From positions 21,533 through 85,532 of the forward strand of contig CALVWQ010000005.1 in assembly GCA_944367535.1 (NCBI GenBank): a DNA stretch of 64,000 nucleotides. Direction: 5' to 3'. This DNA is from an uncultured Clostridia bacterium. Its GTDB lineage: Bacteria > Bacillota > Clostridia > Christensenellales > Borkfalkiaceae. Shown here piece by piece: positions 2,170-26,921 of this stretch. Each line of letters opens with the position of its first letter. Positions within the stretch are counted from its first letter, which is position 1. The notes beneath the pieces are model-generated. The model was given only the letters and a program-made list of their open reading frames with translations. It was not told where the DNA came from and made no database searches. A program made the position numbers and the translations under genes.

Positions 2170-4320
2170 TTATCGGACGCTTTCAAGCGTCTTTTTAAGA
2201 CTGTTTAAGTTAAGCAACTTTTCCAGAAGGTTGGCGGGCGCATAATAGTAATGATTAGTCATTTCAAAACCGATTTTCGCGTCCTGCGCCATAAGTGCGT
2301 AAAGACCGACCGCGTTTTCGTATTCTGCGTTGATAATCTCCGAAAGCCTTCTTTCGTTCGCTTTTACGTCCTTTTTTAACTTTACGAATTCCGCGTGCAA
2401 AAACGCGCTGTTAAGGTGAAGATAACTTGCTTTCGCCATTCTTACGTATTCCGAAAAAAGCGCGTTTCCTTCCGCTTTTTCCAAAATTTCAAGGCCCTTT
2501 TCCCATCCCTCGCAAAGTTTACGGTATTGATTTATATAGACATCCAAACCGTACGGCGCAGACCAGACTTCGTAGTCGTCAAAGGAAAAACATACCATGG
2601 TGGATTTTTTTCCGTCTTCTTTAAGCGACCACAAGTTTGCCGCGCCAAGCGTTTGCGCGCCCTCGTAAAGGCTGTTCACGCTAAACGGATATTCGCGGAA
2701 CGCTTTGCAGAACAATTCCGAAGCGGCTGCGACCGAATCCGCCGCTTTTCCGTATTGTTTGCGGTAGAAGCTTCTGCAATCGAAGTCGCCGATTTTGCAG
2801 GCGTCGGAACACGCGGTAAGCGCGCCGCCCGTATACCCACCGAGACTCCAACCGAGCATAACGCCCGATACACCGAGTTTTTTCACGTTCTCGATATGTT
2901 CCGTCATCAGCTCGAACACGGGAAGATACGGCACGGCGGAACATTCCCAACTGTTATTGACCTGCACCTTCGCCCAGATTCTGTGCCCCGCTTTCTTTGC
3001 CCTTTCAAGACAGGCGACGGTGTATTCGCCGGGACCTACCACCGAAATGGAATAATCTATGATTCGCGAAGTCACTCCGCCGCGGGTAAATTCTTTATCG
3101 AATTCGCTCACACTCAAAACGTCAGCGTAGGGATCGAGCAAATCTATACAAGAAAACGTGTCATCCATAGACCAGCCCATATATTCCGCCCAACCCCAGA
3201 TATTAGAAATATACGCCGTTTCGGGGTTTGCGTCTTTAACCGCTTTGCACATCACGTTGTTTATCTCGGCAACGACTTCGTAAGGTTTTCTCTTTGCGCA
3301 GACGGGACAATCCGTATGCCCCGTAACGCCGTTCCAACTCCTCGAATAGCAATGAGTGGGATTTTCGCTCATCGTTATAGTGAAAATACCTTTAAGAAGC
3401 GGCGCGCTCTCTACCACAGATTTAACCGCGTCGTAAACATATTTTCTCACCTTTTCGGAAGAAGTGCAAAGACAATATTCGTCGTCGGAAATCTTTTGCC
3501 CTTTCATTTCGGGATACTTATCAAAAAAAGATGCGGGCAAACTTCTCGGTTCGTTAAGATAAAGGTATATTCCCACCCCGTATTTTGCTGCGCGTTCGGT
3601 AAGTTTTTTTAGATTCTTTATTCTGATTTCGTAGTCCGAAGAAAAACTTTCGACAAACGGAAACGCCGCAAGGTTTCTTAAAGTTTCGTGCAGCCACAAT
3701 CCGTTTACGCCCGTTTTTTTCAGGCGTTTTAAATATTCTTCGGAATAATCCGCAAGCTCGTCGTCTAAAAGCACGCCCGTATACCGCGCGCAGTAGTTAG
3801 AAATAAACCTGTCCTTCACGACGTATTCGCCCTCAGAAAACCCCGTTCCTTCTTCCTCGGGTTCTTCTCCCGCATAAAAATCGAACGGCATAACTTTGGG
3901 TTTCACATACGTTTCGTCAACGATTTTTTTAATCTCCGCAAGTCTTGCTTCGTTCGATTTGGGATTGCCGTAAACGGGCGTTTCGATTTTCGGTTTTTCG
4001 CCGAGTTTAACGTACAAAAAATCGTAGTCGGACAAAATCGCCTCTAATTCTTTTCCCGTAACACCGATAAAACGCGCTATCGCGTCGTTGGAAAGCAAAT
4101 CCCAGTTATTTCTTATAATGGTTACGAATCCCTTTTTTTGCCACGCGGAATTAAATTCAAATTTATCGAGTCCGGTCGCCCTCGCAAAACTTTCCACCTC
4201 TTCTTCCGTGGCGGAAATCGCTTCCGCAATTTTAGAACTTTCTACGTAAGAATAGTTCCTGAAAATAACCTTTTCCCATGCGTACATATAGTTTTCGTTT
4301 GCGTCTTTAATCATTATCAT
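2170..4320 (-). CDS. Unassigned TIM-barrel glycosidase-like protein, 716 aa
   Basis: I do not recognise a precise family. The middle third reads like a glycoside hydrolase barrel of the GH20/GH10-related type: GVNGLWLHETLRNLAAFPF, a YLNEPRSLP strand, GIFTITMSENPTHC, TDCPVCAKR, a WGWAEYMGW segment and GVMLGWSLGGYTGG. The N-terminal 120 residues contain helical segments that resemble HTH or helical-bundle repeats. There is no signal peptide, so action on imported oligosaccharides in the cytoplasm is likely. CPVC could bind metal. ATG at 4320 is preceded by AAAAGGA; a second ATG at 4314 is equally possible. It lies just downstream of a broken glycosidase remnant and is the last minus-strand gene of the main polysaccharide cluster. 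Confidence 0.6.
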   Translation of the reverse strand: MIMIKDANENYMYAWEKVIFRNYSYVESSKIAEAISATEEEVESFARATGLDKFEFNSAWQKKGFVTIIRNNWDLLSNDAIARFIGVTGKELEAILSDYDFLYVKLGEKPKIETPVYGNPKSNEARLAEIKKIVDETYVKPKVMPFDFYAGEEPEEEGTGFSEGEYVVKDRFISNYCARYTGVLLDDELADYSEEYLKRLKKTGVNGLWLHETLRNLAAFPFVESFSSDYEIRIKNLKKLTERAAKYGVGIYLYLNEPRSLPASFFDKYPEMKGQKISDDEYCLCTSSEKVRKYVYDAVKSVVESAPLLKGIFTITMSENPTHCYSRSWNGVTGHTDCPVCAKRKPYEVVAEINNVMCKAVKDANPETAYISNIWGWAEYMGWSMDDTFSCIDLLDPYADVLSVSEFDKEFTRGGVTSRIIDYSISVVGPGEYTVACLERAKKAGHRIWAKVQVNNSWECSAVPYLPVFELMTEHIENVKKLGVSGVMLGWSLGGYTGGALTACSDACKIGDFDCRSFYRKQYGKAADSVAAASELFCKAFREYPFSVNSLYEGAQTLGAANLWSLKEDGKKSTMVCFSFDDYEVWSAPYGLDVYINQYRKLCEGWEKGLEILEKAEGNALFSEYVRMAKASYLHLNSAFLHAEFVKLKKDVKANERRLSEIINAEYENAVGLYALMAQDAKIGFEMTNHYYYAPANLLEKLLNLNSLKKTLESVR

Positions 4321-4329
4321 GCGTTCCTT

Positions 4330-4640
4330 TTATTTTTTCACCTTGAAAAGCGCGCTTCCGTGCGGAGGGAAAAACCGCCGAAATCCCGCCCGAACAAACC
4401 TTTTCTCCCGTCCAGATATTCTCGTACTCTCTTTCGCCGAAAAGACCTATGTCAGCGCTTTTAAACGAAATTTTCTTTTCCGTTTCGGTCGCGTTGAAAA
4501 TCCCTACCGTTTTATACCCGTCGTCCGCACAGAACGCCTCTTCCGAAAGAATAATTTTTTTATAAATTCGCTCATAATCACCAGTAAAATTTTGGCGTCG
4601 CCGCTTGTTACGATTATTCCGTACCCCCGCCTGCAACGCC
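4330..4640 (-). pseudogene. Frameshifted C-terminal remnant of a glycosidase
   Basis: On the minus strand one frame gives a typical C-terminal beta-sandwich of GH27/GH36-like enzymes: LSEEAFCADDGYKTVGIFN, then ADIGLFGEREYENIWTGEKV. Before it the coherent protein (GYGIIVTSGDAKILL) is in another frame, with the switch near a run of seven A at 4555-4561. After it the expected ending PHGSALFKVKK and a TAA at 4330-4332 are in a third frame, implying a second frameshift in the TTTTTCCCT tract. The catalytic domain is absent. This is a decayed gene between the esterase and the 716-residue protein. Confidence 0.6.
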
Positions 4641-4686
4641 GATTAAAGTACAAATTAAATATTTCCAAAAGTCAACTGCAATTCGC

Positions 4687-7600
4687 CTATATTATTTCGG
4701 TAAATACGGAACTTACCTGCGAGTTCACCCCGCCGATCGAAAACTCTACGTTGACGTAATACCCCTTTACGTCTTCGGGGATACTGCCGGTAAGCCTTCC
4801 GTCCTCCGTAACCGTAACGGCGGTCGAAGAAGTCTGCCACGTTTGGGTAAGAAAAGGATATGCGTTACCCCAACCGAATTTATCGAACACGGTATAGGTC
4901 ATTTTTTCGGTAATATAATATACGGTTGCACCCGTAACGACAGCCCCTTCCGGAACGACGAGCGCGCAGTTTATCTCTCTGCCGCTCGGCTGATTGCCAA
5001 ACCTGACGAACCCCGCGCCGCCCTTTACCACGGAATCCGCAAACACCGCGCTGTATTCGTTTTCGTAATAGAACACGGAACCGTGACTGTGCGACCAATT
5101 TCCGAGCATAACCAAAACGTCTTTTTCGTTGTTGCGCACCGAATGAACGTAAGAGTTTACGTACGCGGGCACGGCGAAGTTGTTGTCGTCGTTATAAGCC
5201 CACCACATTACGGGGTTTTTAAAGTTATCGAGTCTGTCTTCCGCTGCCCACAAAGCATGGACGTATTCGTTGCCGAACTTATCGAAAGAATGCATTTCTC
5301 CGCCGAGGTACGCCGTTCCGTACACGGGCACGGCAAACGCGTATCTCGTGTCGTAGCCTATCGCCAAAGACGCAGTGACTCCGCCCCACGATACGCCCGT
5401 AATGCCTATTTTTTCGCTGTCGACTCTTTCGTCCGCGCGAAGAATATTGTGCGCGTATTCCACGCAGGTAAGCCCGTATATTGCCCAATGCTTATCTATT
5501 TCCGCGTAACTTACGGGGAACTCGCGACGGAGAGAATCCACGTACCCGTCTTCCTGAAAATCTGGATTAGAACCTAACCCGTAAACGAAATTGTCGTTGT
5601 CGCTTTCGTTTATGCATACGGTCCCTTTTTTGGGAAAACAACCCGTCGTTTCCATCGCTATCGCGGCGTAACCTCTGTCGTTCCACGCCTTAACCCATTG
5701 CAGGTAAGGGTGTCCGCCCCCGCCGTGGACGAGAACCATAGCCGGCACGGGCGAATCTTTGCTTGCGCCGAGGGGAAAACCGATGTAGGCAAATACCTTC
5801 GTCCTGCCGTTCCCGAAAGAGATTCCGTCGTAAGTAATCGCCTTTATATGCTCGTACCCCGCGAGAGAAGAAGGGCTGTATTCCGTTTCCTCTTTCGTTT
5901 CGACTTTTTTATAAAGCGCGGCGTCTAAAATATTTTCGATCTGTCTTTTCTGCTGTACGATCGTCTTTTGCTCTTCAAACAAGTTTCCGTAAACGTTGTC
6001 GGTCAAAACTATGCTGTCTAAAGTGTAATAAATATACTCCTCGCCCGCATTTCCGCCAAAAGTCACGCTCGACAATTCGGTTACGCCTTCGGGAATCACC
6101 CACGCCAGATAGCCTTCAAATCCCGCAAAAACGGAATCGGCGGTTTTTCCTTCTTTGTCGGTAATTACGGGTCTGATATCAAAGTCTGATTCGTTAATCC
6201 CTGTCAAAGAAAAATCTAATACGCTTAACCCGGAATTTCTTATGAAGATTCTTAAATAAGCCTTGCCCGACCTGTCGGTTTTACCGAAATTCACGGTGAC
6301 GGAATGTTTTTTTCCTGCGGACAACGGCGTTACTCGTAATCCGTTGCCAATATCGGAGGCAACCTTTTCCGTCGATACGCGCACTTCACCCGTAAAGGCG
6401 TAGTCGGGCGCGTATTCGTCAAAGTCTTCGAGCGTTATATCCCCCGAAGCTTTGGCAAGAATCCCTTTTAAGAGTTGCCTTTCCCGTTCGGTACACTCGC
6501 CGCTTTCCAGCGCACGCTCAGCCACGTAAGAAACGCTTCTCGTTACGGCGGCGGAATAACTTACGACTTCGATATCAGAATTCAATCTCTTATAAACCAC
6601 GTAAGCTCTCGCCGTTATGTCTTCGTTATATCTCGATTCTGGTATTTTGGTTAAAACTCCGGTAAAGCAACGCGTTGCGCTCGCTTCGTCACCGTAATAA
6701 TAATTTTTTGCGGGGATATCCAGAACATCCGCAGTAAATAAAGTCAATTCTTCGTTTAACAAACGCTGCGGCATTATCAAGGTTCCTTCGCGAACGATTT
6801 CGATTTTATCGTTTTTGCTTACAACCGTCTGAAATCGCATTCCCATCTCTCCGCAAAGCCTTATAGATGCGCCCGTCATTTCAAAATCGACCTTATACTC
6901 GACGGGATTTTCGCCGCAGAACTCAACGTTATCGATGCTGGTCGTTGCCGTAGAAGACTCCAACGCAAGATAGATATATTCCGTCCCGTCCGTTTTGTAT
7001 CCGTCAAAAACCTTGTCGGTATAAAGCGCGGCGCCGTCTATCGCGTAAGAAATTACTCCGTCTTTTACCTTTATAACGAGGTTGTGTTCCTGCCCGTCGC
7101 AAAAATTCACGTCGGCGGAAGCCTGCCACGTTGTCTGCGAAAGCGAGCCGCGATAAACGTAAGTGCTTTTATTTGTCGGGTTAAACACCAGCGAATAGTC
7201 TACATCGTGATTCGCGGCGTTTACGTCCTTTAAGAACCCTACGAGGAAATACGCGTCGTTTTGCACGCAGAAATCGAGAGATATATATTTCTCTCCCGCG
7301 GTGGGAACGGCGATATTAAGCGCGGTTTTTGCCCACGAGTCAGAACAGAATTTCCCTTCTTTAACGCTCCACTCTTTACTCGCGCCGAGTGCTTTCACAA
7401 AGTAATCTTTATCGTTTTCTATTTCAAAGGTAATCGACTGCGAGCCCGCTATCTCTACCGAAGGAGCGAGTTTAGAGAATTTTACGTTATCGATGCTGGT
7501 CGTTACCGTAGTAGACTCCAACGCAAGATAGATATATTCCGTCCCGTCCGTTTTGTATCCGTCAAAAACCTTGTCGGTATAAAGCGCGGCGCCGTCTATC

Positions 7601-8109
7601 GCGTAAGAAATTACTCCGTCTTTTACCTTTATAACGAGGTTGTGTTCCCGTCCGTCGCAAAAATTCACGGCGGCGGAAGCCTGCCACGTTGTCTGCGAAA
7701 GCGAGCCGCGATAAACGTAAGTGCTTTTATTTGACGGGTTAAACACCAGCGAATAGTCCACTCCGTGATTCGCGGCGTTTACGTCCTTTAAGAACCCTAC
7801 GACGAAATACGCGTCGTTTTGCACGCAGAAATCGAAAGATATATATTTCTCCCCCGCGGTGGGAACGGCGATATTAAGCGCGGTTTTTGCCCACGAGTCA
7901 GAATAGAATTTCCCTTCTTTAACGCTCCACTCTTTACTCGCGCCGAGTGCTTTCACAAAGTAATCTTTATCGTTTTCGATTTCAAAGGTAATTACCTTTT
8001 CACCGAAAGCTTCTGCGGCTTCGGTCTTTGCGGACAAACAGAAAAACAGCGACAAAGATAAAAACAACAAGCAAAACAATATGCCGGAAAGTATCTTTTT
8101 CGTTTTCAT
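4687..8109 (-). CDS. Secreted multidomain esterase (alpha/beta hydrolase) with duplicated beta-sandwich module
   Basis: The protein has 1140 residues. Residues 1-32 form a signal peptide (KK, then a leucine/phenylalanine core, then AEAAEA). Two nearly identical beta-sandwich modules follow (about 40-215 and 226-400). At 413-555 comes a domain starting GASIR with GMRF and RSVSYVAERAL, shared with the 1559-residue protein of this locus. A further beta-rich domain follows, and the C-terminal third is an alpha/beta hydrolase: oxyanion motif VLVHGGGGHP, nucleophile motif GVSWGG with Ser907, a DDNNF segment and catalytic histidine candidates His1007/His1009. It resembles acetyl-xylan-esterase/acyl-peptidase-type hydrolases, so removal of acetyl groups from extracellular glycan is likely. 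Start: ATG at 8109 preceded by GGAGAAGGATATGAT. Confidence 0.75.
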   Translation of the reverse strand: MKTKKILSGILFCLLFLSLSLFFCLSAKTEAAEAFGEKVITFEIENDKDYFVKALGASKEWSVKEGKFYSDSWAKTALNIAVPTAGEKYISFDFCVQNDAYFVVGFLKDVNAANHGVDYSLVFNPSNKSTYVYRGSLSQTTWQASAAVNFCDGREHNLVIKVKDGVISYAIDGAALYTDKVFDGYKTDGTEYIYLALESTTVTTSIDNVKFSKLAPSVEIAGSQSITFEIENDKDYFVKALGASKEWSVKEGKFCSDSWAKTALNIAVPTAGEKYISLDFCVQNDAYFLVGFLKDVNAANHDVDYSLVFNPTNKSTYVYRGSLSQTTWQASADVNFCDGQEHNLVIKVKDGVISYAIDGAALYTDKVFDGYKTDGTEYIYLALESSTATTSIDNVEFCGENPVEYKVDFEMTGASIRLCGEMGMRFQTVVSKNDKIEIVREGTLIMPQRLLNEELTLFTADVLDIPAKNYYYGDEASATRCFTGVLTKIPESRYNEDITARAYVVYKRLNSDIEVVSYSAAVTRSVSYVAERALESGECTERERQLLKGILAKASGDITLEDFDEYAPDYAFTGEVRVSTEKVASDIGNGLRVTPLSAGKKHSVTVNFGKTDRSGKAYLRIFIRNSGLSVLDFSLTGINESDFDIRPVITDKEGKTADSVFAGFEGYLAWVIPEGVTELSSVTFGGNAGEEYIYYTLDSIVLTDNVYGNLFEEQKTIVQQKRQIENILDAALYKKVETKEETEYSPSSLAGYEHIKAITYDGISFGNGRTKVFAYIGFPLGASKDSPVPAMVLVHGGGGHPYLQWVKAWNDRGYAAIAMETTGCFPKKGTVCINESDNDNFVYGLGSNPDFQEDGYVDSLRREFPVSYAEIDKHWAIYGLTCVEYAHNILRADERVDSEKIGITGVSWGGVTASLAIGYDTRYAFAVPVYGTAYLGGEMHSFDKFGNEYVHALWAAEDRLDNFKNPVMWWAYNDDNNFAVPAYVNSYVHSVRNNEKDVLVMLGNWSHSHGSVFYYENEYSAVFADSVVKGGAGFVRFGNQPSGREINCALVVPEGAVVTGATVYYITEKMTYTVFDKFGWGNAYPFLTQTWQTSSTAVTVTEDGRLTGSIPEDVKGYYVNVEFSIGGVNSQVSSVFTEII
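6930..7992 (-). repeat. Tandem 558-bp in-frame duplication inside the esterase gene
   Basis: The segments 6930-7434 and 7488-7992 are nearly identical, offset by 558 bp (186 codons). Scattered single-base differences change only a few residues (for example FYSD versus FCSD, NPSN versus NPTN). The low divergence at both synonymous and nonsynonymous sites indicates a recent duplication. Confidence 0.9.
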
Positions 8110-8127
8110 ATCATATCCTTCTCCTGC

Positions 8128-8241
8128 TTACAACCACTTATATTCGCCGTCATTATCAATTCCGGCAGACGCTTCCAGCAAATTTACGGCAATCGGCAAT
8201 TCGATAATGTCAATTGTTATTCTTTCATAACGTTTTTTCAC
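8128..8241 (-). CDS. 37-residue acidic-tailed peptide, family shared with 10940-11068
   Basis: A GTG at 8241 opens a 37-codon frame ending TAA at 8128. The peptide begins KKRYERITIDIIELP, contains ASAGIDNDGEY and ends KWL. AAGGTTAGG lies upstream of the GTG. It fills the gap between the oxidoreductase and the secreted esterase. It shares layout with the 42-residue peptide at 10940-11068: KKxY start, an II pair near residue 13, an AI/AV hydrophobic stretch, G-x-D, and an acidic Tyr/Trp C-terminus. No signal peptide is seen. Function unknown; the pairing with large secreted proteins is the only clue. Confidence 0.5.
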   Translation of the reverse strand: MKKRYERITIDIIELPIAVNLLEASAGIDNDGEYKWL

Positions 8242-8283
8242 AACTAAACCTAACCTTGTAATATTATTCCGTATAAAAATGCT

Positions 8284-9555
8284 CTATATACTGTCCACTT
8301 TTACCACGGTCATATTTTCCCGTGCTTCGTCCGCCGCGTAAACGCAAAGATGCCCGTTCACGGAATCCGCTATAGAAGTATACGCGGGCGATGGTTTTTT
8401 ACCCTGAACCATTTTCAAAAAGTCGTCTACGAGCCTGCCGTCGCCACCCATATGTCCGAAGTTGACGCCGTCTTCGCCGCTTAAATCGAAAACTTGCTCG
8501 GTACAGTAATTCGTTTCCTCGAATTTTCTCAGAACTATTCTGCTGTCCTCGAACGTTCCCTCTATTTCGCCCGCCGTGCCGACTATGTGAATATCGCGCT
8601 TGGGCTTCATCGCGCCGAGCATCAGCGCGAGAGAAGCGGTGCTTCCGTTGGCAAACTGAATTATCAGCATCTGATTGTCTACCATATCTTTGTCCGTTTT
8701 ATACGCGCAAACACCGTGAACGTTGTCAGTTTTAAGCGATTTAATGCGTTCCTCGATGGTAATCTCATCGTAAGGCTTATCTATCGTTTCAAACGCATAA
8801 TAACTGAAAAGGGTGCTTTTTATATAATCGCGATAAGCCGACCATTGACAGGTTTCTTGGTGAGGACAGCCGTCCATGCAGCGCAAAGGCGCGTCTTCGG
8901 GCGCTTTTTCGGGAGCAAGAAAGTTTCTCGACCCGAACGAAGAAACGTACGCGGGTTTCGTTGCGTTATTAAGCCAGCAAAGATAGTCGAGGTCGTGACA
9001 ACACTTTGCCATTAAAAGCGTAGAACCGTCCGTTTTGCTGTTCCTCCACTTGCCCCTAATAAACGCGCTCGAAGCGTGAATAACGCCCACGTTTTCGCTC
9101 GCCTCAATCGTCATAATCTCGCCGACCTCGCCGTCGTCGATAAGCTTTTTGATATTTGAATAGAAAGGCGTATACCGTAAAAGGTGACAAATCATAAGAA
9201 CTACGTGGTTTCTCTCTGCCGTTTCTTTAAGTTTTAACAATTCTGTTTTATCCGAGGTAACGGGCTTTTCCAAAAGAACGTGATAGCCGTGTTCGAGGAG
9301 AGGCATCGTCGTCTGATAATGGAACTGATCCATCGTTCCGTTAATGGCGCAATCCGCGATTTTACCCGCAGCCATGGCTTCATCCACCGACTTAAAACAC
9401 ATTTCTTCTTTAATATTAAACCTTTCTTTCGCAAGGTTTCTTCTGAAGTCGTTGGGTTCGACGACCGCCGATATCTCCACACCGTCCGTTTCCGCCGCAA
9501 ATCCAGAATACAGTTGACATCTGAAACCATAAGACACAAGTAATACTTTTAACAT
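8284..9555 (-). CDS. Gfo/Idh/MocA-family NAD(P)-dependent oxidoreductase
   Basis: The protein has 423 residues. The N-terminus KVLLVSYGFRCQLYSGFA is a degenerate Rossmann glycine motif. EKPVT (around residue 97) is the conserved catalytic/cofactor lysine motif of the family, and MAKCCHDLDYLCWL holds the HD pair of the C-terminal alpha/beta domain. A cysteine-rich insertion CMDGCPHQETC lies near the middle. These enzymes oxidise or epimerise sugars, often helping glycosidases with redox mechanisms. It lies 39 bp downstream of the GH4 gene, consistent with catabolism of the released sugar. Start ATG at 9555 has AAGGAG seven bases upstream. Confidence 0.85.
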   Translation of the reverse strand: MLKVLLVSYGFRCQLYSGFAAETDGVEISAVVEPNDFRRNLAKERFNIKEEMCFKSVDEAMAAGKIADCAINGTMDQFHYQTTMPLLEHGYHVLLEKPVTSDKTELLKLKETAERNHVVLMICHLLRYTPFYSNIKKLIDDGEVGEIMTIEASENVGVIHASSAFIRGKWRNSKTDGSTLLMAKCCHDLDYLCWLNNATKPAYVSSFGSRNFLAPEKAPEDAPLRCMDGCPHQETCQWSAYRDYIKSTLFSYYAFETIDKPYDEITIEERIKSLKTDNVHGVCAYKTDKDMVDNQMLIIQFANGSTASLALMLGAMKPKRDIHIVGTAGEIEGTFEDSRIVLRKFEETNYCTEQVFDLSGEDGVNFGHMGGDGRLVDDFLKMVQGKKPSPAYTSIADSVNGHLCVYAADEARENMTVVKVDSI

Positions 9556-9594
9556 TTTTTCTCCTTATTGCTCGATTGAAAGTTAATTTTTGTT

Positions 9595-10914
9595 TTATTC
9601 ATAATCGGGAATCCATTTCCCGTGTGCTTCAAAAAGTTCGTCGCAAAGCGATTTTATTTCGTCTAAATTAAGTTCCGCCGCCGTGTGCGGGTCTAAATAC
9701 GCCGCCATGTATACAAGTTCCTTTTTGCGCTCTCTCGCCGCAAGAATAGTCATATTCTGCACGTTGACGTTAGTTCTGTTAAGCGCGGCAAGCTGCTCCG
9801 GAAGCTCGCCGAAAACGCAAGGCGTAACGCCGCTTTTGTCTACCAGACACTTAACTTCCACGCACGCGTTTTGTGGCAGGTTCGTTATCAGCCCCGCGTT
9901 AAGAACATTGGCGTTTATCTCGTACGGTTTGCCCGTTACGACTGCTTCTATTATGCGGGAAGCGTATTCCCGACTGCGTTTATGCTCTATCTCTTCCGAC
10001 AACACTTTTCCGCGCATTTCTTCCCATTCGCGTATCTGCTTTATGCAACGGCGCGGATATTCGTCGAGAGGTATGTTATATTTTTCTATAAGCTCCGGAT
10101 ATTTCGATTTTATGTAATAAGGCGAATATTCCGAGGTATGCTCGCTGGATTCCGTGTTGTAGTACCCGAATCTTTTCATTATATCGAGCCTTATGCGGTC
10201 GTTTTTCGTGCTGTCCCGATATTCTTCAAGCTCCGCCCTTCTCTTTATTTCGGGATAAAGATCGTTGCCCGCCTCGTCACGAATTTCGGTAAGCCACGCC
10301 TGATGATTTATTCCCGCTATTTCGTACTTTGCCCCCGCGATTTTATCCTTCATTCCGAGTTCGGTCAGAAGGTCGGGAACGCAAACCTGCACGCTGTGAC
10401 AAAGTCCCGCCGTTTTCACGCCGAGATATCTTTGCGCATACCCCGAAATCATAGCCATAGGATTAGAATAATTCAGAAACAGCGCGTCGGGACAAACTTC
10501 GCGCATATCTTCGGCAATGTCTTCTATGACCGGAATAGTCCTGATCGCCCTGAAAATTCCGCCTATGCCCAGCGTATCGCCTATCGTCTGACGGAGTCCG
10601 TATTTTTTAGGAATTTCAAAGTCCGTCACCGTACACGGCTCGTACCCTCCTACCTGTATCGCGTTGATTACGAAGTCGGAAGAAGCAAGTGCGGCTTTTC
10701 TGTCCGAATAAGCCCTGATTGTCGCTTTGCCGTTATACTTTTTGTTTATGTTTTCCAGCATCAGGCGCGAGTCGTTAAGTCGCTTTTCGTCTATATCGTA
10801 AAGGGATATTTCAAACTTGCCGAGTTTTTCCGTCAAGATGCAGTCGCCGAGTACGTTTTTTGCAAACACGGTACTGCCCGCGCCTATGAGAGTTATTTTA
10901 GTCATTTTATTCAA
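9595..10914 (-). CDS. GH4 glycosidase, alpha-galactosidase or alpha-galacturonidase type
   Basis: This 439-residue cytoplasmic protein has the GH4 architecture: NAD-binding ITLIGAGSTVFAKN at the N-terminus, DTLGIGGIFRAIR, NYSNPMAM, and the metal/specificity motif CHSVQ at Cys172-His173. GH4 enzymes use NAD+, Mn2+ and an elimination-type mechanism. CHSV is known from MelA alpha-galactosidases, but the adjacent LplABC-type transporter recalls the Bacillus lpl operon, where LplD is an alpha-galacturonidase, so either substrate is possible. AAAAGG stands six bases before a TTG at 10914 and 15 bases before the ATG at 10905, so the TTG start is favoured. It follows the 42-residue peptide gene. Confidence 0.85.
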   Translation of the reverse strand: MNKMTKITLIGAGSTVFAKNVLGDCILTEKLGKFEISLYDIDEKRLNDSRLMLENINKKYNGKATIRAYSDRKAALASSDFVINAIQVGGYEPCTVTDFEIPKKYGLRQTIGDTLGIGGIFRAIRTIPVIEDIAEDMREVCPDALFLNYSNPMAMISGYAQRYLGVKTAGLCHSVQVCVPDLLTELGMKDKIAGAKYEIAGINHQAWLTEIRDEAGNDLYPEIKRRAELEEYRDSTKNDRIRLDIMKRFGYYNTESSEHTSEYSPYYIKSKYPELIEKYNIPLDEYPRRCIKQIREWEEMRGKVLSEEIEHKRSREYASRIIEAVVTGKPYEINANVLNAGLITNLPQNACVEVKCLVDKSGVTPCVFGELPEQLAALNRTNVNVQNMTILAARERKKELVYMAAYLDPHTAAELNLDEIKSLCDELFEAHGKWIPDYE

Positions 10915-10939
10915 GTTACACCTTTTCTATCTTCATTTT

Positions 10940-11068
10940 TTACCAGTCGTAAATATAATCGTCCTCTTTATCGAAACCTATCGTTCCGGGCGCACTCATT
11001 ACTATCGCATCCGATTCAAAATCGTTTATTATTTCTGCATAAGGTGCGTTATACTTTTTCTTTTCCAT
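10940..11068 (-). CDS. 42-residue acidic peptide with aromatic tail
   Basis: An ATG at 11068 with a perfect AGGAGG eight bases upstream opens 42 codons ending TAA at 10940. The peptide begins MEKKKYNAPYAEIINDF, contains DAIVMSAPGTIGF and ends KEDDYIYDW. It is too short for usual length cut-offs but has one of the best ribosome-binding sites in the locus. It lies between the 1559-residue secreted protein and the GH4 gene. Its plan matches the 37-residue peptide at 8128-8241. No leader peptide or double-glycine site is obvious. Possible roles are a partner of the surface proteins, a regulatory peptide or a modified-peptide precursor; none can be proved here. Confidence 0.7.
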   Translation of the reverse strand: MEKKKYNAPYAEIINDFESDAIVMSAPGTIGFDKEDDYIYDW

Positions 11069-11103
11069 AATGATTCCTCCTTTTCGGAACTTTTGCCCGC
11101 TCT

Positions 11104-14100
11104 TTAAGCGTTAGCCAAAGCATTTATTTCGGCAAGAATTTCTTCCGTAAACGCGGAATACCCGTTTCCCGTTTGGGTGGCGTACAAGTCTGTTCTGACC
11201 GCGCAAACGTTTTCGAGCGCGGCTTTCGCTACGTCTGAAACGGAACGCTCGTTATCCGTAACTCCGGCGTATAAAGTTTTTTCCGTTTCGTCCGCATAAG
11301 TTATCGTCATAAATCCGCGCGCCGCGAATTTTACCGCAGCGTTCGCAACGCCTACCACCGCGGCGTTAAAGGTCAAAAACTTCCCGTCTTTTGAGCAAAC
11401 CGTTTTATACAATGCTTTCAGGTTGCGCGATTCGAGATTTTCGAGCGTAAGAAGGCTTAAATCCGTTTTTCCTTCAACCGCTATATCGGCAGAGTGCGCG
11501 AGAATCGTACCGAGGCGTAAGTTTTCTTCGCCGATAACGCTCACGGCGTTTTCGTCGATAAAGTTCGTAAATCTTATACCTTTCGGCGAATTGATTCTTA
11601 TCGAAGCGCCGTTGAAAGTCGTAAACCTTGCAAAAACCGCAGTCACGCTTTTACCCGCGAGCGTATCCGCCGCATAACCTGCGGGATAAAGTTCTCCGTC
11701 TATCTTATACCCCACGAAAACGTGTCCGCTCTTAAAGAGTTCGGGCAACGCGCCCGTAATCGCGCTTTCGCTTTTTATAGCGACGTCTCCGTAATTGTCG
11801 TATATAATTACCGAATTCTTTGCAAATTTCGCTATGGCAACGTTCGTTCCGTCAACGGTATCGCCGGCGGCATAGTGCGTTCCGCCTATATCGTAACCGA
11901 TAAAAGTACAGCCCTCTTTTCTGATTGCGGGAAGAACGCCGTTCTCTTTGCACGCTTTAATCGTATAAAGCGTAGTGCCGTCTTCCTCTCGTATCGTGAG
12001 CGTATTTACGTAATAACCGGAGAAATCCGCGCTTTTCGGGAAATAATACCCGAAAGTAAACCCGTTATAATTTTTGATTTCCGACGGAGTGCCGTCGTAA
12101 TTTTTACCGTTGTAACCGGCTTTCAGGATTGCGGCGAGCGCGTCTTTCTTTTTCCATACGAGCGAATATTCCGCAAGCGTTTCACCGTTCGCCGTAACCT
12201 TACCTCCGTAATTTTCCAGCGATCTCCCGCACCAAGTCTCCTTTACGGCATAGAATATAAGGGTAATTTTATCGCCTTCGTTCACGTTAAACTTACCGAG
12301 AGAGTTGAACTTAAACTCTTCGTTCGCGACAAAGGAAGCAAATTCCCCACCCGAAGGATATATCTTTCTCGTAGTTCCGTCCGTCGCTTTCGTTAAATAA
12401 AGACCGATAAAGTAGTCTTCGTCCGCTACGAAAGAAGCTCCGTCCGCAAACTCAAAAATTCCCGTTTTATCCACGTCGAGAGTAACGGCCTTGATTGCCC
12501 AACCCGTACCTATTCTCTGTCCGTGCGGCTGCCAGTACAAGTCTTTTCTGTCGTCGTAAATAGTTCCGTCATCGGCCGTAGTCGCGTAAGGCTTAATATC
12601 GGGGAGAAGATATATTTCTCTCTCGTCCGTTTCGGGCTTTTCCGCACCGCAGAACGCCGATTCGTCAAGTTCGACCGTAAACTGATTTACGCTTCTGAAC
12701 AGTTTTCCCTCCGAGGGCGAGTAGTAGTTGACGCTTACGGTTTTGCCGTCCGCCGCGAAACGCATAAACGCCATAACGCCCGTCTGACGACTGCCCGTAA
12801 ATTCCATTGCGGAAGAATCTATCATAAATGTTAAAACCTTGCTACCGTCCGCACGTACGAATTCGTTACGTATTATATCCACGCCGTCGGCGTGACCGCA
12901 TAGCACCATAACCACGTTAGGGCAAACGTTTACGAGTTTCTCCCATATCTTCGCGCCGCTGTTGTTCGTTGCGGGGTTGCCCATATTAGAAGAGTTAAGC
13001 TCCGCCTTCCTCGTCATATAGACGTGGGTGGATATTATAACCCGCGTATCCGCGTTTGCGTCTATAACGTTTTTAGCCCACACCAAATCCTCGTCCGTCG
13101 GTTCAAGGTCAAGAACGACGAGCATATATTTTATTCCGCCGACTTCAAAACGATAGTACGCGTTACGCATCTCGTTTAGTCTTCCGTCCGCAATTGCCCC
13201 GTATTTTTCCGCAGAATAAGCGGAATCCCATTTTGCAAGTCTTTCTGCGGTGAAACCGCCGTCGTGGTTGCCGCGGTTAATCGCGAAACGCACTCCGCCT
13301 TCGGTGAGATAATCCATATAGGACAGCCCTTTTTCAAGCTCTCTTACCCCTTTGGTTTCCCACTCGGGATAATTCATAAAGTCGGTAAGGTCGCCCATAT
13401 GCGCAACGAGCTGCAGGTTCAACATATTCTTGTTTTCCACAAGCCAACGCGCGTTTTTGTAGAGAAGGTTATCTTCGTCTATATAATCCTCGTTGTAAAT
13501 TACGTTACCGTTTCTGTCCTTCGCTGTAGACAAAAGCATTTGCGTATCGCCCATAACGGCAAGTGTGAATTCACCGTCTTTTGCGGCGAGTTCTTCTTTA
13601 TCTATACTCCTCCACCCGAAAGCGTCCTTTGCGTTTTCGCCCGCGTAGTCGTAATAATCGCCCTTTTCTCCGCTGATAAAGTCTACCGCACCCAGAGTCC
13701 CGCCTCTCTTTCCGCCGTTCGCGATATCCTTTATTTCGGCTGCGGTAAGAATATCAGAATAAACTCTTGCCTGTGCGATATATCCGTTAAAATCAGGCGT
13801 AAAACTCAATGCGAGTATTTCTTCGTCGGTATAATCGCTGCCTATCATAACCGGCTTTGAAAAACTTATATCCGCCAAAGCCTTACCTGATATCCCCGTT
13901 TTTTTTGCCGCAAGTTCGCCGTTGACGTAGCAGGAAATTTCACCCGCCGCCGCGTTCACCGTAAACGCTACGTTAAGCCATCTGCCCGTTCTCACGTCAA
14001 CGTTCTTAACGATAAAAACCGCCTTTTCCGTTCTCGAAACGCGCCATTCTAATTTCGGATTGCCGTTCGTGGTCACTTCCATGGAAAAAACGTTGTCCGC

Positions 14101-15783
14101 ATCGTATAAAGACGAACCGAACATATCCCTGCGCATATTGCCTATAATCGTACCGATATGCACGTTATCGCCTATGTTTCTGCTCGTTTTTATCCACGCG
14201 GCAATCGTCTTCGGAGAAGCCTCGAAAACTTTTCCGAATGCGACGCCGTCGTTACCCGTAAAGTCTTTTCCGTCGGAATATAGCGAAGAACCGAAGCTCA
14301 AACCATTAAATGCTTCTTCCGCCGCGGTAAGCGTGTCGATGTTAGTTACTTTAACCTGCTCCGAGGAGGAAAGTTTTTCGTACTGCGCTCTTGCGAACGC
14401 TATCTGTTTTTCGCTGCCGACGGTCACGTTGCCGATACGTTCGATAGCGGTTATAACTCTGTTTGCCGAGTTTGCAACGCGAGGAATATACGCGCCGTAA
14501 ACGAACGGATCTCCAAACGAGAACGTTCCCTCGTTTGCAGAAGAATCCGCCGCAAAATAGTATACATCGAGCCACGCCGCCTTTTCGAGATTGAAAGCGT
14601 TGGCGTCGTCGGTGAATTTATCGTAATCGGCGTTGTTGGCATCCCAGTCGAGAATTTCAAAAGACTCTATCGGAATAATAACGTTTCCTATAAAGTTTGC
14701 GGGAACTTTTGCATAGCCTTTATTTAAGTTAAAAGTTTGTTTCATCAAGCCGGAAACTACGCTTCCGTCTTCGCTTTCGAGATAGTATTCGAGTTTTTCC
14801 GCCGCCGTCCACCATCTGCCATGATCGGCAACTGCCGCCGAAGCGCCCTCTTTTAGATCCGCACAAACACCCGTAGAAAACGCCGTTTCGTTCCTTACGG
14901 GAATCGCTACGTATTCCGCTCCGACGATATTATATCCCGCCGACCAGAAAGTATCGCGCTCCGCCATTCTTGTAGTTTTAAGCTCCTCGTTCGTAATTCT
15001 GAATTTGGAAACGGGGTTGTTCGCGTTAAGATTCGTAAATTTATCGAGTTTGGTAAAATTCGCGTCCGAAACGAAAAGCGCGTCCTCGTTTACCTCTCTG
15101 TATACTCTGAAATTTTCTATATACGAGCCCTGCATCGCGCGAAACGCCACACGGAAATTTTGAGGTACGGCATATTCCGTTTGAGAGTTGTCCGTGCTTT
15201 CAAGCACCGTGTCGTCGATTATAAAGGTAGCCTTTCCTTCTCTTATAGCGACTACCACCTTATGAGGCGCGTCGACCGCGATATTCTGCTTTACGTTGCC
15301 TACCCACGCCTCCGCGCCTACGTTGTTCGCAAAGTACGAAGAGGTCGCGCCAACTCTCATTTTAATGCCGATGGCTTCTATACCGGCTACGTTATGCGTG
15401 GTAACGTCTTTATCCGCAAGCACGAAATCGAAAAAGTCGTTCGCGTTCGCTTCGTCCATATATCCGCTGCTGCTCGAACCGTACATATCGAATTCCACGT
15501 AGGTAACGTAAGCGTCTTTGAAAGAAGAAATATCGAACGAATCCTTCGTAACCATCGTCGAGTAGTTTTTGGCGTGGAATTTTCCGTCGGAAATCGTCCA
15601 CGCGCCGTTACCGCTCTCGTAAATGAAGTTGTTTGCATCGGAAGGGCTGTTAAAGTCCACCGATATACCGAACTCCCCTTCCGCTTCGACGAGCGTTTTG
15701 GTAAACGCGAATATTATCGCCGCCATAAAGCACAGAACCGCCGCAACCAAAAGCGCGGTTATAGTTTTAATTTTTTTCGTCAT
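11104..15783 (-). CDS. Secreted 1559-aa LamG / calcineurin-like phosphoesterase protein
   Basis: After a signal peptide (KTITALLVAAVLCFMAAI) come a beta-sandwich module of the type repeated elsewhere in this locus, a helical FIVAR-like spacer, and a LamG domain (about 500-700, ending VYSDILTAAEIKDI). The metallophosphatase domain carries GDTQ (745-748), GDLTD (797-801), GNHDGG (838-843), STHVYMT and GHADG (963-967), the full metal-binding set. Two InlB-like repeats follow (GCTFIGYDIGGTHYAAGDTV and the like). Residues 1392-1559 are the GASIR domain also present in the esterase. No sortase signal is seen. ATG at 15783 overlaps the end of the upstream gene by 17 bp and has AAGGAGG upstream, suggesting translational coupling. 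Likely a cell-surface or released phosphoesterase/binding protein. Confidence 0.75.
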   Translation of the reverse strand: MTKKIKTITALLVAAVLCFMAAIIFAFTKTLVEAEGEFGISVDFNSPSDANNFIYESGNGAWTISDGKFHAKNYSTMVTKDSFDISSFKDAYVTYVEFDMYGSSSSGYMDEANANDFFDFVLADKDVTTHNVAGIEAIGIKMRVGATSSYFANNVGAEAWVGNVKQNIAVDAPHKVVVAIREGKATFIIDDTVLESTDNSQTEYAVPQNFRVAFRAMQGSYIENFRVYREVNEDALFVSDANFTKLDKFTNLNANNPVSKFRITNEELKTTRMAERDTFWSAGYNIVGAEYVAIPVRNETAFSTGVCADLKEGASAAVADHGRWWTAAEKLEYYLESEDGSVVSGLMKQTFNLNKGYAKVPANFIGNVIIPIESFEILDWDANNADYDKFTDDANAFNLEKAAWLDVYYFAADSSANEGTFSFGDPFVYGAYIPRVANSANRVITAIERIGNVTVGSEKQIAFARAQYEKLSSSEQVKVTNIDTLTAAEEAFNGLSFGSSLYSDGKDFTGNDGVAFGKVFEASPKTIAAWIKTSRNIGDNVHIGTIIGNMRRDMFGSSLYDADNVFSMEVTTNGNPKLEWRVSRTEKAVFIVKNVDVRTGRWLNVAFTVNAAAGEISCYVNGELAAKKTGISGKALADISFSKPVMIGSDYTDEEILALSFTPDFNGYIAQARVYSDILTAAEIKDIANGGKRGGTLGAVDFISGEKGDYYDYAGENAKDAFGWRSIDKEELAAKDGEFTLAVMGDTQMLLSTAKDRNGNVIYNEDYIDEDNLLYKNARWLVENKNMLNLQLVAHMGDLTDFMNYPEWETKGVRELEKGLSYMDYLTEGGVRFAINRGNHDGGFTAERLAKWDSAYSAEKYGAIADGRLNEMRNAYYRFEVGGIKYMLVVLDLEPTDEDLVWAKNVIDANADTRVIISTHVYMTRKAELNSSNMGNPATNNSGAKIWEKLVNVCPNVVMVLCGHADGVDIIRNEFVRADGSKVLTFMIDSSAMEFTGSRQTGVMAFMRFAADGKTVSVNYYSPSEGKLFRSVNQFTVELDESAFCGAEKPETDEREIYLLPDIKPYATTADDGTIYDDRKDLYWQPHGQRIGTGWAIKAVTLDVDKTGIFEFADGASFVADEDYFIGLYLTKATDGTTRKIYPSGGEFASFVANEEFKFNSLGKFNVNEGDKITLIFYAVKETWCGRSLENYGGKVTANGETLAEYSLVWKKKDALAAILKAGYNGKNYDGTPSEIKNYNGFTFGYYFPKSADFSGYYVNTLTIREEDGTTLYTIKACKENGVLPAIRKEGCTFIGYDIGGTHYAAGDTVDGTNVAIAKFAKNSVIIYDNYGDVAIKSESAITGALPELFKSGHVFVGYKIDGELYPAGYAADTLAGKSVTAVFARFTTFNGASIRINSPKGIRFTNFIDENAVSVIGEENLRLGTILAHSADIAVEGKTDLSLLTLENLESRNLKALYKTVCSKDGKFLTFNAAVVGVANAAVKFAARGFMTITYADETEKTLYAGVTDNERSVSDVAKAALENVCAVRTDLYATQTGNGYSAFTEEILAEINALANA

Positions 15784-17821
15784 TTTTCATCCTCCTTACT
15801 GTTTTTTTGGTTATAACGACAATCGTTACGAACGCAGCAGCAAACACCGCCGTCAACGCCCCTAATATTATCGCGATAACAACCTTCGTGCGGTCGGGCG
15901 TTTCCTTTGCCGATCCCGCAAGTTCTTCCGGCAGCTTCGGCTCGTTGCCGATCGTCACGCCGCCGTAGGATATATCTCCTCTTCCGTCGGGAAATTTAAG
16001 CGACTCGGCTTTATTATTTATTGAAAGCGATTGTATCTTCGTATCCGTCGAAGTCGATTGTACGGTAAGATATCCCGCCTCCGCGTTTACGGCGACGTTC
16101 TTAAAAATAACTTCGTTATCTATCGCTACCGAAACACGACCGTCCTTGATTACGATTTTGACCGAATGTATTTGTCCGTCGAAAAAGTTCCTGACGGAAC
16201 TGTCCACTGTCGTTTCAAACGGGTTACCGAACCAGTAACTTATGTTAAACTGCACGCTCTGCGGTTTATACAAGTGCAACGTTACGCCCGAACTCGGTAC
16301 TACTCCCCCGCTCGACTTTTCTTTCACCAGCCCTACGTTAAACTGAGAGCCGTTTCCGTCCTCTTTTGCGGAGAAATCGAATTTTATAGTCTTTTCTCCG
16401 CCGAGCGGAATTATTTCGGAGTATTGCGCGGTTGCCCACGGGCTTGCGGGAGAAAAAGCCCCGTCCTTCGCAATCCAGCCGCCGTTGCCGCACGCAACGA
16501 ACCCGTTATCGTCCCGAAATTCCGTTTCAAACTCTTCGAAATCCGCGTACGGAGCGGGAGCGGTATAGGCTACGTCGCTTTCACTTACGGTAAAGTTGTC
16601 TATGCAACTCATCGTTTCGGTACTCTGAAACGCGAGATAAACCTCTTTTTCGCTTACGGGAATATCGAATTCCGTTCTGCCGTCCGCGAAGGTAATAATA
16701 GTTCCGTCAATATAATACGAAACTTTTCCCTCGCCTACTTTGATTTTAAGATTATGTTCTTTGCCGTCGTCCCAGGAAAAAAAACAGTCCGCAAGCCACT
16801 TGTTGCGAGAAAGACTTTCGTTGGCGGTGATAACGGGCGTTTCTCCGGAATAGTATGCGTGTATTCCGAATCCGTCCTGCGAATCGAAGTCGGGCAAAAA
16901 CGCCACATTGAACTGTGATTCGGCTTTATTTTTATTGTTTATCGCCGCAAAGAAATCAAAGGCGATATAGGTGGTCTTTTCAAGGTTTATCGGCTGAATG
17001 GTTTTAACCGTCGCCCACGACGCCGCAGGATAAAATTTCCCGCCGTCCGCGCGCCAGCCCGCAGATTCAAATTCGGGCTCAAAATACTGATTAGGCGCAA
17101 CATCCGAAAAGTCTACGAACAGCTCCGTGTACTCGTTACTCGGCTGAACGGGCGCAACGTACGGTATATCCGTTGCGGATACGATAAAGTTGTCTATATA
17201 ACTCCTTTCGCTCGCCGCGCGGAATACTATTTCCGCTTTACCCGAAAGCGTTTCTATATCGAGAGGAAAACTCGTAACCGCCCCGCCGTTAAAAGCAAGC
17301 GGCGTTTCGCTTCCGTCCATATAGAACGAGATAAAAGAATCGGCGATTTTGATTTTAAGATTATGCGCTCTGCCGTCTGCAAAGTTCCCCATGTAATCGC
17401 CTAGCCACTCGTTTTGGTCAAGGTTTTTGTTCACGGTAAACACCCCGCCAACATTCGAATACAGGTGCGCGCCTATTCCGCGCCACGAAGTATTGAGATT
17501 TTCGGTAAAAAATACGTCGAACGGAAAAGCGTCCGTGCAAAAATCGAAAGATATAAACCGCGTTGCGCCGAGATCGATTGTGTTTTTTGTTTTGGTTATC
17601 GCGCCGCTTTGCTTCGGACGATAAACTCCGTTCTCGGCTATCCAGCCGCCGAACGAATGCTCCGCAAACGCTCCGCCGTCGTTCTCGTCGAAGTCGAGGC
17701 GTAACTCGACAATACTTTCCGCAAAAACCGTTCTTAAGCCCGTAAACGCCGCAAAAAACAACGCCGCCGCAAGCAAAACGAAAAGTATTGCGCCCGCCCA
17801 TTTTCTGTTTACTCCCGTCAT
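15767..17821 (-). CDS. Membrane-anchored protein with three beta-sandwich modules
   Basis: I place the start at ATG 17821 (684 residues) because GGAGGGAGGA lies just upstream; the open frame continues further but without a ribosome site. A signal peptide or anchor (WAGAILFVLLAAALFFAAF) is followed by three tandem modules of about 180-200 residues. Each has a GGW-x-A-x-x-G-x-F/Y strand, an H-N/S-L/V-K-I-K/V strand, a YxDG/IDN turn and a closing SxIDNFxVS-like strand. A C-terminal hydrophobic helix (VVIAIILGALTAVFAAAFVTIVVI) followed by KKTVRR anchors it in the membrane. The modules resemble 3-keto-disaccharide-hydrolase or LamG-like folds and probably bind glycan. It lies just downstream of the solute-binding protein gene. 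Confidence 0.65.
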   Translation of the reverse strand: MTGVNRKWAGAILFVLLAAALFFAAFTGLRTVFAESIVELRLDFDENDGGAFAEHSFGGWIAENGVYRPKQSGAITKTKNTIDLGATRFISFDFCTDAFPFDVFFTENLNTSWRGIGAHLYSNVGGVFTVNKNLDQNEWLGDYMGNFADGRAHNLKIKIADSFISFYMDGSETPLAFNGGAVTSFPLDIETLSGKAEIVFRAASERSYIDNFIVSATDIPYVAPVQPSNEYTELFVDFSDVAPNQYFEPEFESAGWRADGGKFYPAASWATVKTIQPINLEKTTYIAFDFFAAINNKNKAESQFNVAFLPDFDSQDGFGIHAYYSGETPVITANESLSRNKWLADCFFSWDDGKEHNLKIKVGEGKVSYYIDGTIITFADGRTEFDIPVSEKEVYLAFQSTETMSCIDNFTVSESDVAYTAPAPYADFEEFETEFRDDNGFVACGNGGWIAKDGAFSPASPWATAQYSEIIPLGGEKTIKFDFSAKEDGNGSQFNVGLVKEKSSGGVVPSSGVTLHLYKPQSVQFNISYWFGNPFETTVDSSVRNFFDGQIHSVKIVIKDGRVSVAIDNEVIFKNVAVNAEAGYLTVQSTSTDTKIQSLSINNKAESLKFPDGRGDISYGGVTIGNEPKLPEELAGSAKETPDRTKVVIAIILGALTAVFAAAFVTIVVITKKTVRRMKNDEKN

Positions 17822-17843
17822 TCTGTCCTCCCTCCTGTCAAGC

Positions 17844-19403: not shown

Positions 19404-19462
19404 TGTAGTATCCTCCTGAAATGTGTTTGTATCGGGAATTTTTCCCGTAATTTTTTGTTGTA

Positions 19463-20344
19463 TCAGCCCTTAACCGCCCCGACGGTCATTCCTTTTACGA
19501 TATACTTCTGAAGAGCCATAAACACGCCCATTATGGGGAGTGTTCCGAGTATACATGTCGCCATAACTATAGAATCGGAACTTTGATTTCCCGCAAGCTG
19601 ACCAAGGTTTTTCTTCCATTCCTGCGCCTGCTGAACGAGGTTTATCATAAGCATCTGTACGTTCCACATACGATTGTCGTCTACGTAAAGATACGCCGTC
19701 CCCCAATCATTCCAGTAAGACAAAGCAACGAGAATAGAACAGGTTGCGAGCGCGGGAAGAGAAAGCGGCACGGTAATCGTTAAAAATTCGCGAAACGCGG
19801 AACAGCCGTCCATCTTTGCGCTTTCGCCTATTTCTTTGGGGATATCGGAAAAAAACGTGCGTAAAAGGATAATATAAAAAGTCATTCCGATTTGCGGAAT
19901 TATCATAACCGCAAAGGTGTTCTTCCATTTAAGGTACTGCGTTATAAGGATATAGGTCGGCACCATTCCCGGCGAAAAAAGCATGGTTATCAAAAGCATT
20001 ATCGTCACCGCGTTTTTAAACTTAAAATGCGGTTTTGATAAGGGATACGCAATCAACGCCGTTAAAAACACGTTAATAAGAGTTCCTCCGCCCGTCACCA
20101 CGATACTTACCCCGTAAGCGCGTAACAGCGGATTTACGTTGGCAAACACCACTTTATACGCGTTAATGCTCCAGTCTTTTACGAACAGAGTATAACCGTA
20201 ATTTTGCAAGGCTTCGTCCGAAGAAAAAGACGCCGAAATCATTATCACGAGAGGAACAAGACAAAACAGCGCGAAAAGAACCATCCATAAAACATTGAAA
20301 AAATCGAAGGCAAAAGACGCGCCTATTTTATTTTTGCTTTTCAT
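19463..20344 (-). CDS. Carbohydrate ABC transporter permease (LplC/YtcP type)
   Basis: This 293-residue protein has six predicted membrane helices. The EAA-type cytoplasmic loop (GESAKMDGCSAFREFLTITVPLSLPALAT) contacts the ATPase, and the C-terminus KYIVKGMTVGAVKG is characteristic of this permease subfamily. It pairs with the permease gene 14 bp upstream. No ATP-binding subunit is encoded nearby, consistent with systems that share one MsmX/UgpC-like ATPase. Minus-strand ATG at 20344. Confidence 0.92.
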   Translation of the reverse strand: MKSKNKIGASFAFDFFNVLWMVLFALFCLVPLVIMISASFSSDEALQNYGYTLFVKDWSINAYKVVFANVNPLLRAYGVSIVVTGGGTLINVFLTALIAYPLSKPHFKFKNAVTIMLLITMLFSPGMVPTYILITQYLKWKNTFAVMIIPQIGMTFYIILLRTFFSDIPKEIGESAKMDGCSAFREFLTITVPLSLPALATCSILVALSYWNDWGTAYLYVDDNRMWNVQMLMINLVQQAQEWKKNLGQLAGNQSSDSIVMATCILGTLPIMGVFMALQKYIVKGMTVGAVKG

Positions 20345-20358
20345 TCTCTTTCGCCCCC

Positions 20359-21309: not shown

Positions 21310-21336
21310 TTTGTCTCCTTAAACCGTCTCAATCTT

Positions 21337-24195: not shown

Positions 24196-24227
24196 CAATC
24201 CCACTCCGAGTTTTTATTTTCGTATAA

Positions 24228-26836: not shown

Positions 26837-26921
26837 TTTAATGTTCCTCCTGACTGCAAAAAAGTTTTACACCTATCAAGCGAATAAAACGCCGAAAATA
26901 TTCCGGAATATAAAAAATTTT

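Follow-up and report, generated by a model that had tools for sequence, protein, structure and literature searches.

Closest described systems

Linear polyphosphorylated peptides (LPPs) are ribosomally synthesised and post-translationally modified peptides (RiPPs) known from the LppA-K-B-S-D-N system of Paenibacillus alginolyticus (Popov et al., Nat Commun 2026, PMC13381572). According to the account given there, a discrete RiPP recognition element (RRE) binds the YxxP leader, an HprK-like kinase phosphorylates Ser3, and a SpI-like enzyme cleaves the leader. The naming paper gives the biological role of these peptides as unknown, and the word Clostridia is missing from its main text. The subject here is a window of 64,000 nucleotides from an uncultured Clostridia bacterium (contig CALVWQ010000005.1 of assembly GCA_944367535.1, forward-strand positions 21,533 to 85,532), which is part of contig C5 of a 1.9-Mb genome, referred to below as G000. 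Two small minus-strand open reading frames (ORFs), peptide A (10940..11068) and peptide B (8128..8241), are located in a glycan-utilisation operon of this window. Both are likely to encode precursors for an LPP-type RiPP system working in trans, and the peptide family to which they belong is probably matured by one shared enzyme set encoded elsewhere in the genome.

Several components resemble those described for LPPs (PMC13381572). These are a discrete RRE with the YxxP-holding Asn and Asp, an HprK-like kinase, an archaeal-type signal peptidase and, in some genera, candidates for the MsbA-like exporter and the NTP transferase. The precursors likewise combine a conserved YxxP leader with a conserved Ser and a variable C-terminus, and no lasso protease was found. 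The leader itself differs, reading KKxYxxPxIxV..DVIxxS here and YxxPxVLxHQxIxFETxxS in the published LPPs. Whereas that paper describes one to three precursors per cluster, in Bacilli and often in capsule loci, the precursors studied here are scattered, with up to 12 profile matches per genome. The window peptides lie in a glycan-utilisation operon instead, and in their home bacterial family most such peptides are paired with a secreted protein that contains an unnamed domain. The enzyme genes, too, are dispersed in the genus of G000. When a Ser about 19 residues after the Tyr is taken together with YxxP as the mark of an LPP precursor, peptide A has both (Ser at 20), while peptide B has the Ser at 21 and no Pro. 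The peptidase matches the archaeal model sigpep_I_arch weakly, under its cut-off. Because their genes lie outside the biosynthetic cluster, on another contig, the window peptides are best described as an LPP-like variant and not as strict members; presence of the precursor in the cluster is how precursors were found in PMC13381572, whose account states no such requirement.

Paeninodin-type lasso peptides, as presented in the same paper, share the YxxP/WxxP leader logic, the RRE, the HprK-like kinase and a nucleotidyltransferase. They differ from the present system, in which a signal-peptidase-like enzyme is found and no B2 protease exceeds the cut-off in 40 genomes. The NCBIfam models ScmC, HprK_rel_A, PqqD_rel_X and lasso_PqqD match the kinase and the RRE, all under their curated cut-offs. 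A literature search that largely excluded subscription papers and preprints yielded no account of scattered precursors or of peptide-domain pairing beyond PMC13381572.

The peptide family

On sequence grounds, both small ORFs are members of one large, overlooked peptide family. Peptide A (MEKKKYNAPYAEIINDFESDAIVMSAPGTIGFDKEDDYIYDW) is an LPP-like precursor of 42 aa with an ATG start, an intact YxxP leader and, as read from the sequence, a perfect AGGAGG Shine-Dalgarno (SD) motif (11076..11081, minus strand). Peptide B, with 37 aa, is a divergent LPP-like precursor and the weaker member of the pair: it starts with GTG, has Ile in place of the YxxP Pro, and is preceded by a poor ribosome site consisting of just AAGG/AGG, further upstream. 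The predicted phosphate acceptor is Ser25 in both peptides, encoded on the minus strand at 10994..10996 in peptide A (20 residues from the Tyr) and at 8167..8169 in peptide B (21 residues); the family count and the published pathway suggest that it is the equivalent of LppA Ser3 (PMC13381572). A preliminary description of the window had placed frames of 42 and 37 codons at these coordinates, with a perfect AGGAGG for the longer one, and both points are correct. The common plan that it outlined, with KKxY, II, a hydrophobic stretch and an acidic aromatic tail, is present in both, although the proposed Tyr/Trp ending is loose because the tails finish in WL and DW.

The relatedness of the two peptides, also part of that description, is borne out by profile searches. 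A hidden Markov model (HMM) of 124 peptides, none of them from G000, matches peptides A and B at E-values of 5.4e-5 and 0.014 (Z=10000) and ranks them first and second among the 1212 small-ORF candidates of the window, the third having an E-value of 15; the best score from 20 block-shuffled windows corresponds to 0.69. The independence of this model is incomplete, as its members were gathered with a profile containing both window peptides. Its consensus reads MKKtYetPeievilfeeeDVIttSgg..., followed by an acidic tail, often with Trp. In all 62 scored peptides (three of 65 were unscored) a Ser lies 18 to 21 residues past the Tyr, mostly at 20. Neither window peptide matches any Pfam, NCBIfam or PHROGs family, and a crude hydropathy rule detects no signal-like stretch in the peptides.

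The family was traced through 201 genomes of the same bacterial family as G000. A DNA pattern of SD, ATG and KKxYxxP gave 56 rows in this set compared with six for the reversed pattern; the 56 include two sites listed twice and at least ten rows of ordinary proteins. Ten rows (L021-L026, L039, L049), representing larger ordinary proteins or a zinc-ribbon-like ORF, were removed by eye. Peptide A as a single query against the 201 genomes returned mostly noise, and a five-sequence profile did better. A profile from an alignment of 28 peptides matches 80 of the 201 genomes at up to 12 places each, with 11 in G000. A stricter pattern applied to named genomes found at least 119 stretches, and 80 loci among the matches listed were analysed; these belong mainly to gut Clostridia, with some Bacilli and three Bacteroidales records. 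The preliminary description had named a Ka/Ks below 1 as support, and absent or frameshifted homologues as grounds for rejection. Over 14 close pairs, with no sequence reused, dN/dS is 0.15, which indicates purifying selection, and the relatives were found to hold homologues that are neither missing nor frameshifted.

RRE, kinase and signal peptidase

The distribution of the peptides follows that of a discrete RRE. In two hand-chosen sets of genomes, PqqD (PF05402) is present as a single copy in 20 of 20 peptide-rich genomes and occurs in two of 20 peptide-less ones, one of the latter being a weak match in a long frame. Over the 201 genomes, 73 contain both peptide and RRE, seven the peptide only, 11 the RRE only and 110 neither; five genomes with weak RRE matches alone, nearly all in long frames, were scored as RRE-negative. 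Fisher's test gives 3e-34 for this association, which is no true probability because the genomes are related. In the single genus g16, peptide and RRE are both present in three of seven genomes and both absent from the other four. PqqD is also present in 47 of 50 named peptide-bearing genomes. The peptidase shows the same tendency, being found at E-values of at most 2e-35 in all 20 peptide-rich genomes and in one of the 20 peptide-less genomes, with three further peptide-less genomes giving weak matches near 1e-8.

Some of these genes are physically linked. The best-scoring 30 named RRE loci contain the peptidase in 24 cases, the kinase in 24, both in 22 and a peptide within about 3 kb in six. 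Within the home family, the order peptide-kinase-RRE-peptidase occurs in L327 and L328 and peptide-RRE-nucleotidyltransferase in L326; apart from these three and the six named RRE loci, no precursor was found inside an enzyme cluster. In G000 the RRE is encoded at G000:C8:68835-69041, on a contig other than that of the window, with the HprK-like kinase gene next to it (L306:7083-7811, C8) and the signal-peptidase-like enzyme at G000:C2:79548-79982. Pfam recognises an ABC exporter in L319, L341, L392 and L394, and NTP_transf_5 in L322, L326, L337, L339 and L345. In genus g2, the RRE gene (L321, L324, L338) has no adjoining kinase or peptidase gene, and a kinase-peptidase-exporter group forms a separate cluster (L393-L395); the pathway is therefore split differently among genera.

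The residues expected for recognition and catalysis are conserved. Asn35 of the RRE is retained in 71 of 72 sequences and Asp72 in 67 of 72, these being the equivalents of LppB N33 and D70. The Ser, His and Asp of the peptidase are kept in 45 of 45 sequences and the P-loop GxGK of the kinase in 56 of 56. Among solved structures, the RRE profile matches lasso RREs and also LppB (9x8z, E-value 4.8e-5). Taken with the co-occurrence, these results support the suggestion in the preliminary description that the peptides might be substrates for modification.

The secreted partner protein

Each window peptide adjoins the gene of a giant secreted protein, as previously described. Peptide A begins 35 nt past the gene of a 1559-aa protein with LamG-like and metallophosphatase-like parts (11104..15783, minus strand), its upstream neighbour, and peptide B stops 18 nt ahead of the gene of a 1140-aa protein with weak LamG and S9-like matches (4687..8109, minus strand). 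Both proteins carry an unnamed extracellular domain of about 140 residues with the motif string GASIR...GIRF...ARAY...RSxxxVA. It covers residues 1391-1525 of the larger protein (11209..11613, minus strand; GASIR..GIRF..RSxxxVA) and residues 412-536 of the smaller one (6502..6876, minus strand). The domain has no Pfam or NCBIfam match and no sequence relative in the Protein Data Bank (PDB; best E-value 0.37). A fold model of the copy in the 1559-aa protein (pLDDT 76, pTM 0.71) is predominantly beta, with two helices at the C-terminal end, and a fold search with it found nothing significant (best E-value 0.016; immunoglobulin-like folds with TM below 0.4). With no clear relative among solved structures, the domain offers no basis for proposing a binding site.

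Pairing with this domain is widespread in the home family. Among 22 peptides in 20 stretches, almost all have a large neighbouring protein that begins with a signal-like sequence, and many of these proteins contain the domain. A random held-out sample of 40 peptides has the domain in a complete same-strand neighbour within 150 nt in 25 cases, and in 32 when seven neighbours cut by contig ends are added; the domain profile was refined by iteration on these stretches themselves, raising its matches from 45 to 49. The uncounted peptides comprise L148, L168 and L170 (cut by contig ends), L156 (no partner), L142 (domain at an E-value of only 0.004), L143 (domain two genes off), L153 (a different domain) and L171 (no match). 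In the reverse direction, a peptide lies within 80 nt of 17 out of 20 domain genes. These 20 places were hand-picked, spaced along the domain list outside the earlier stretches, and include four in G000; peptides were accepted up to an E-value of 0.5 (one at 0.3), and several were already in the peptide profile list. Across the 201 genomes, 72 have both peptide and domain, eight the peptide only, 11 the domain only and 110 neither.

The side on which the peptide gene lies depends on the position of the domain. The domain protein is downstream of 35 of 64 peptides (median relative domain position 0.16) and upstream of 14 (0.82; p=2e-5), while 17 of the 64 have no complete domain-carrying gene on either side. 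Peptides thus stand upstream of genes with an N-terminal domain, and a central or C-terminal domain mostly goes with a peptide on the downstream side. Exceptions are peptide B, whose downstream partner has the domain at 0.41, L093, two neighbours in the L090 array, and three of the ten central or C-terminal cases of the reverse test. ATGA overlaps and short gaps occur between peptide and secreted-protein genes. The two peptides of L086 (G000:C23), identical in sequence and separated by 2.4 kb, each precede, by 3 nt, very similar domain proteins of about 700 aa, which represents a recent tandem duplication of a peptide-plus-partner unit.

Among the named loci listed, 67 of 81 peptides lie at most 45 nt from a long ORF, and 60 start directly after one, compared with 22 of 400 random ATGs. 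Of 40 upstream ORFs that are complete, 37 begin with a signal-like stretch by the crude hydropathy rule. In these loci, the partner outside the home family is often a different protein. The proteins before the Bacteroidales members L198 and L253 end in a putative type IX secretion C-terminal domain; both genomes carry a PqqD gene too. The proposal in the preliminary description that the peptides work with extracellular glycan proteins thus holds as genetic linkage, in the form of an unnamed domain shared by secreted neighbours within the home family.

Two further observations concern the partners. In L179, L195, L196, L197, L202, L219 and L244, as well as in L087 and L153, the GASIR/GIRF domain is replaced in the partner by a different recurrent stretch, LYNYGAAAKxxF or MLxYGAAAQxYF, either at its end or elsewhere in the protein. 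In L225, L042 and L195 the peptide core is much like the C-terminal tail of the neighbouring protein, for example ...GDGSVNLPGMDF and ...EDGGVDLPGMDF. Comparison of cores with neighbour C-termini gives a small excess, with six of 368 pairs scoring at least 32 where shuffled pairs lead to an expectation of 0.8.

Proposed pathway and alternatives

In the proposed LPP-type pathway, the conserved N-terminal half (KKxYxxPxIxI...) would be the leader, captured by one small RRE protein from another contig, which would hand it to the kinase and the peptidase. The HprK-like kinase encoded beside the RRE gene would phosphorylate the conserved Ser, and the signal-peptidase-like enzyme would remove the leader shortly ahead of this residue. 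An exporter would then release the acidic, aromatic core, each core being co-produced with the adjoining giant secreted protein and acting extracellularly with its unnamed domain. At the level of sequence, the proposal draws on a peptide family, purifying selection, co-occurrence, some physical linkage, conserved recognition and catalytic residues, and domain pairing in the home family; from these we infer phosphorylation, the cleavage point, export and the physical pairing of peptide and domain. The steps assigned to RRE, kinase and peptidase are probable by close analogy with a tested system and from residue conservation. Gene order suggests that the core may act outside the cell with the protein encoded next to it.

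Two features go beyond the published account of LPPs, namely precursors scattered far from the enzymes and, for most home-family precursors, an adjoining secreted protein with the unnamed domain. Due to the trans layout, genome mining for precursors beside the enzymes would miss many gut Clostridia peptides. A more tentative extension, which we consider possible, is that in gut Clostridia the LPP machinery serves as a shared, genome-wide maturation system in which each domain protein has its own phosphopeptide, peptide and domain move together as a single cassette, and outside the cell the domain captures the mature peptide, which acts as ligand, anchor or tag. In that case, LPPs would be parts of surface protein complexes and not free natural products. 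The recurrent partner protein offers a direct handle on the question of their role.

Several results weigh against an LPP-type system. The YxxP Pro is present in just 39 of 62 scored peptides and absent from peptide B, and the prevailing Tyr-Ser spacing of 20 departs from the 19 of the published motif. Searched against the PDB, the peptide profile missed the solved LppA, and the sole leader found was TfuA at an E-value of 0.27. No RRE was detected in the seven RRE-lacking peptide-bearing genomes of the family (80-93% complete) or in three of the 50 named ones, and the eleven RRE-only genomes have no peptide match at an E-value of 0.01. In the genus of G000, gene lists inspected by eye showed neither an MsbA-like exporter nor an NTP transferase next to the RRE or the peptidase; the precursors lie apart from the RRE-kinase pair, and the peptidase apart from both. 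Outside the home family, just 15 of the 80 loci listed gave a match to the domain next to the peptide. Lastly, the three Bacteroidales records combine the peptide pattern with PqqD, while LPPs are restricted to Bacillota in the account of PMC13381572.

Among the alternatives, the peptide could be a cytosolic chaperone or pilot that helps to export the neighbouring domain, binding the nascent secreted protein and staying inside, with the enzyme co-occurrence unrelated. The missing signal-like stretch, the ATGA overlaps or short distances between peptide and secreted-protein genes, and the way in which gene side tracks domain side are all compatible with such a role. It would, however, leave the matching distribution of RRE, kinase and peptidase, the peptides inside RRE operons and the conserved YxxP and Ser unexplained, and most partners in the named loci listed lack the domain; we regard it as improbable. 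Almost no credence is given to a regulatory or translational-coupling ORF of irrelevant sequence, which the tight spacing to the next gene might suggest, as it is contradicted by the amino-acid conservation (dN/dS 0.15) and by the retention of the motif in distant gut bacteria. The regulator reading of the preliminary description has no support in any result.

It is also unlikely that peptide A alone is a working precursor and peptide B a decaying or unrelated ORF. The GTG start without a clear SD, the Ile for Pro and the profile E-value of just 0.014 would point that way, yet peptide B ranks second of 1212 window candidates, retains KKxY and Ser, lies 18 nt ahead of a partner-domain gene, and shares the missing Pro with others among the 23 of 62 peptides that lack it. 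A lasso peptide or other cyclised RiPP, or a double-glycine bacteriocin, is very improbable. While the leader is like the YxxPxL leaders of lasso peptides and the nearest solved RREs are lasso RREs, the B2 protease (PF13471) exceeds the cut-off in none of 40 genomes, with one sub-threshold match containing stops, in a search that did not cover the cyclase. A C39 peptidase, expected for double-glycine leaders, occurs in none of the 20 peptide-rich and four of the 20 peptide-less genomes.

Operon and neighbouring features

The host operon spans 2170..24204 on the minus strand, as inferred from strand and spacing. Its genes encode, in order, a GH141-like secreted protein, two ABC permeases, a solute-binding protein, a 711-aa LamG-like protein, the 1559-aa protein and peptide A, followed by GH4, Gfo/Idh/MocA, peptide B, the 1140-aa protein, a 109-aa ORF and a 716-aa ORF. 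The peptide genes occupy gaps of 174 nt and 189 nt, while the remaining junctions are at most 59 nt, in agreement with the earlier remark that these are the sole sizeable gaps of the operon.

Upstream of the operon, a BRO-N protein and an AAA/helicase protein with DUF2726 are encoded at 25985-29672 on the minus strand, possibly as a mobile insertion. An M-box magnesium riboswitch (RF00380, 81.9 bits) is located at 42806-42960 on the plus strand, ahead of a 477-aa ORF.

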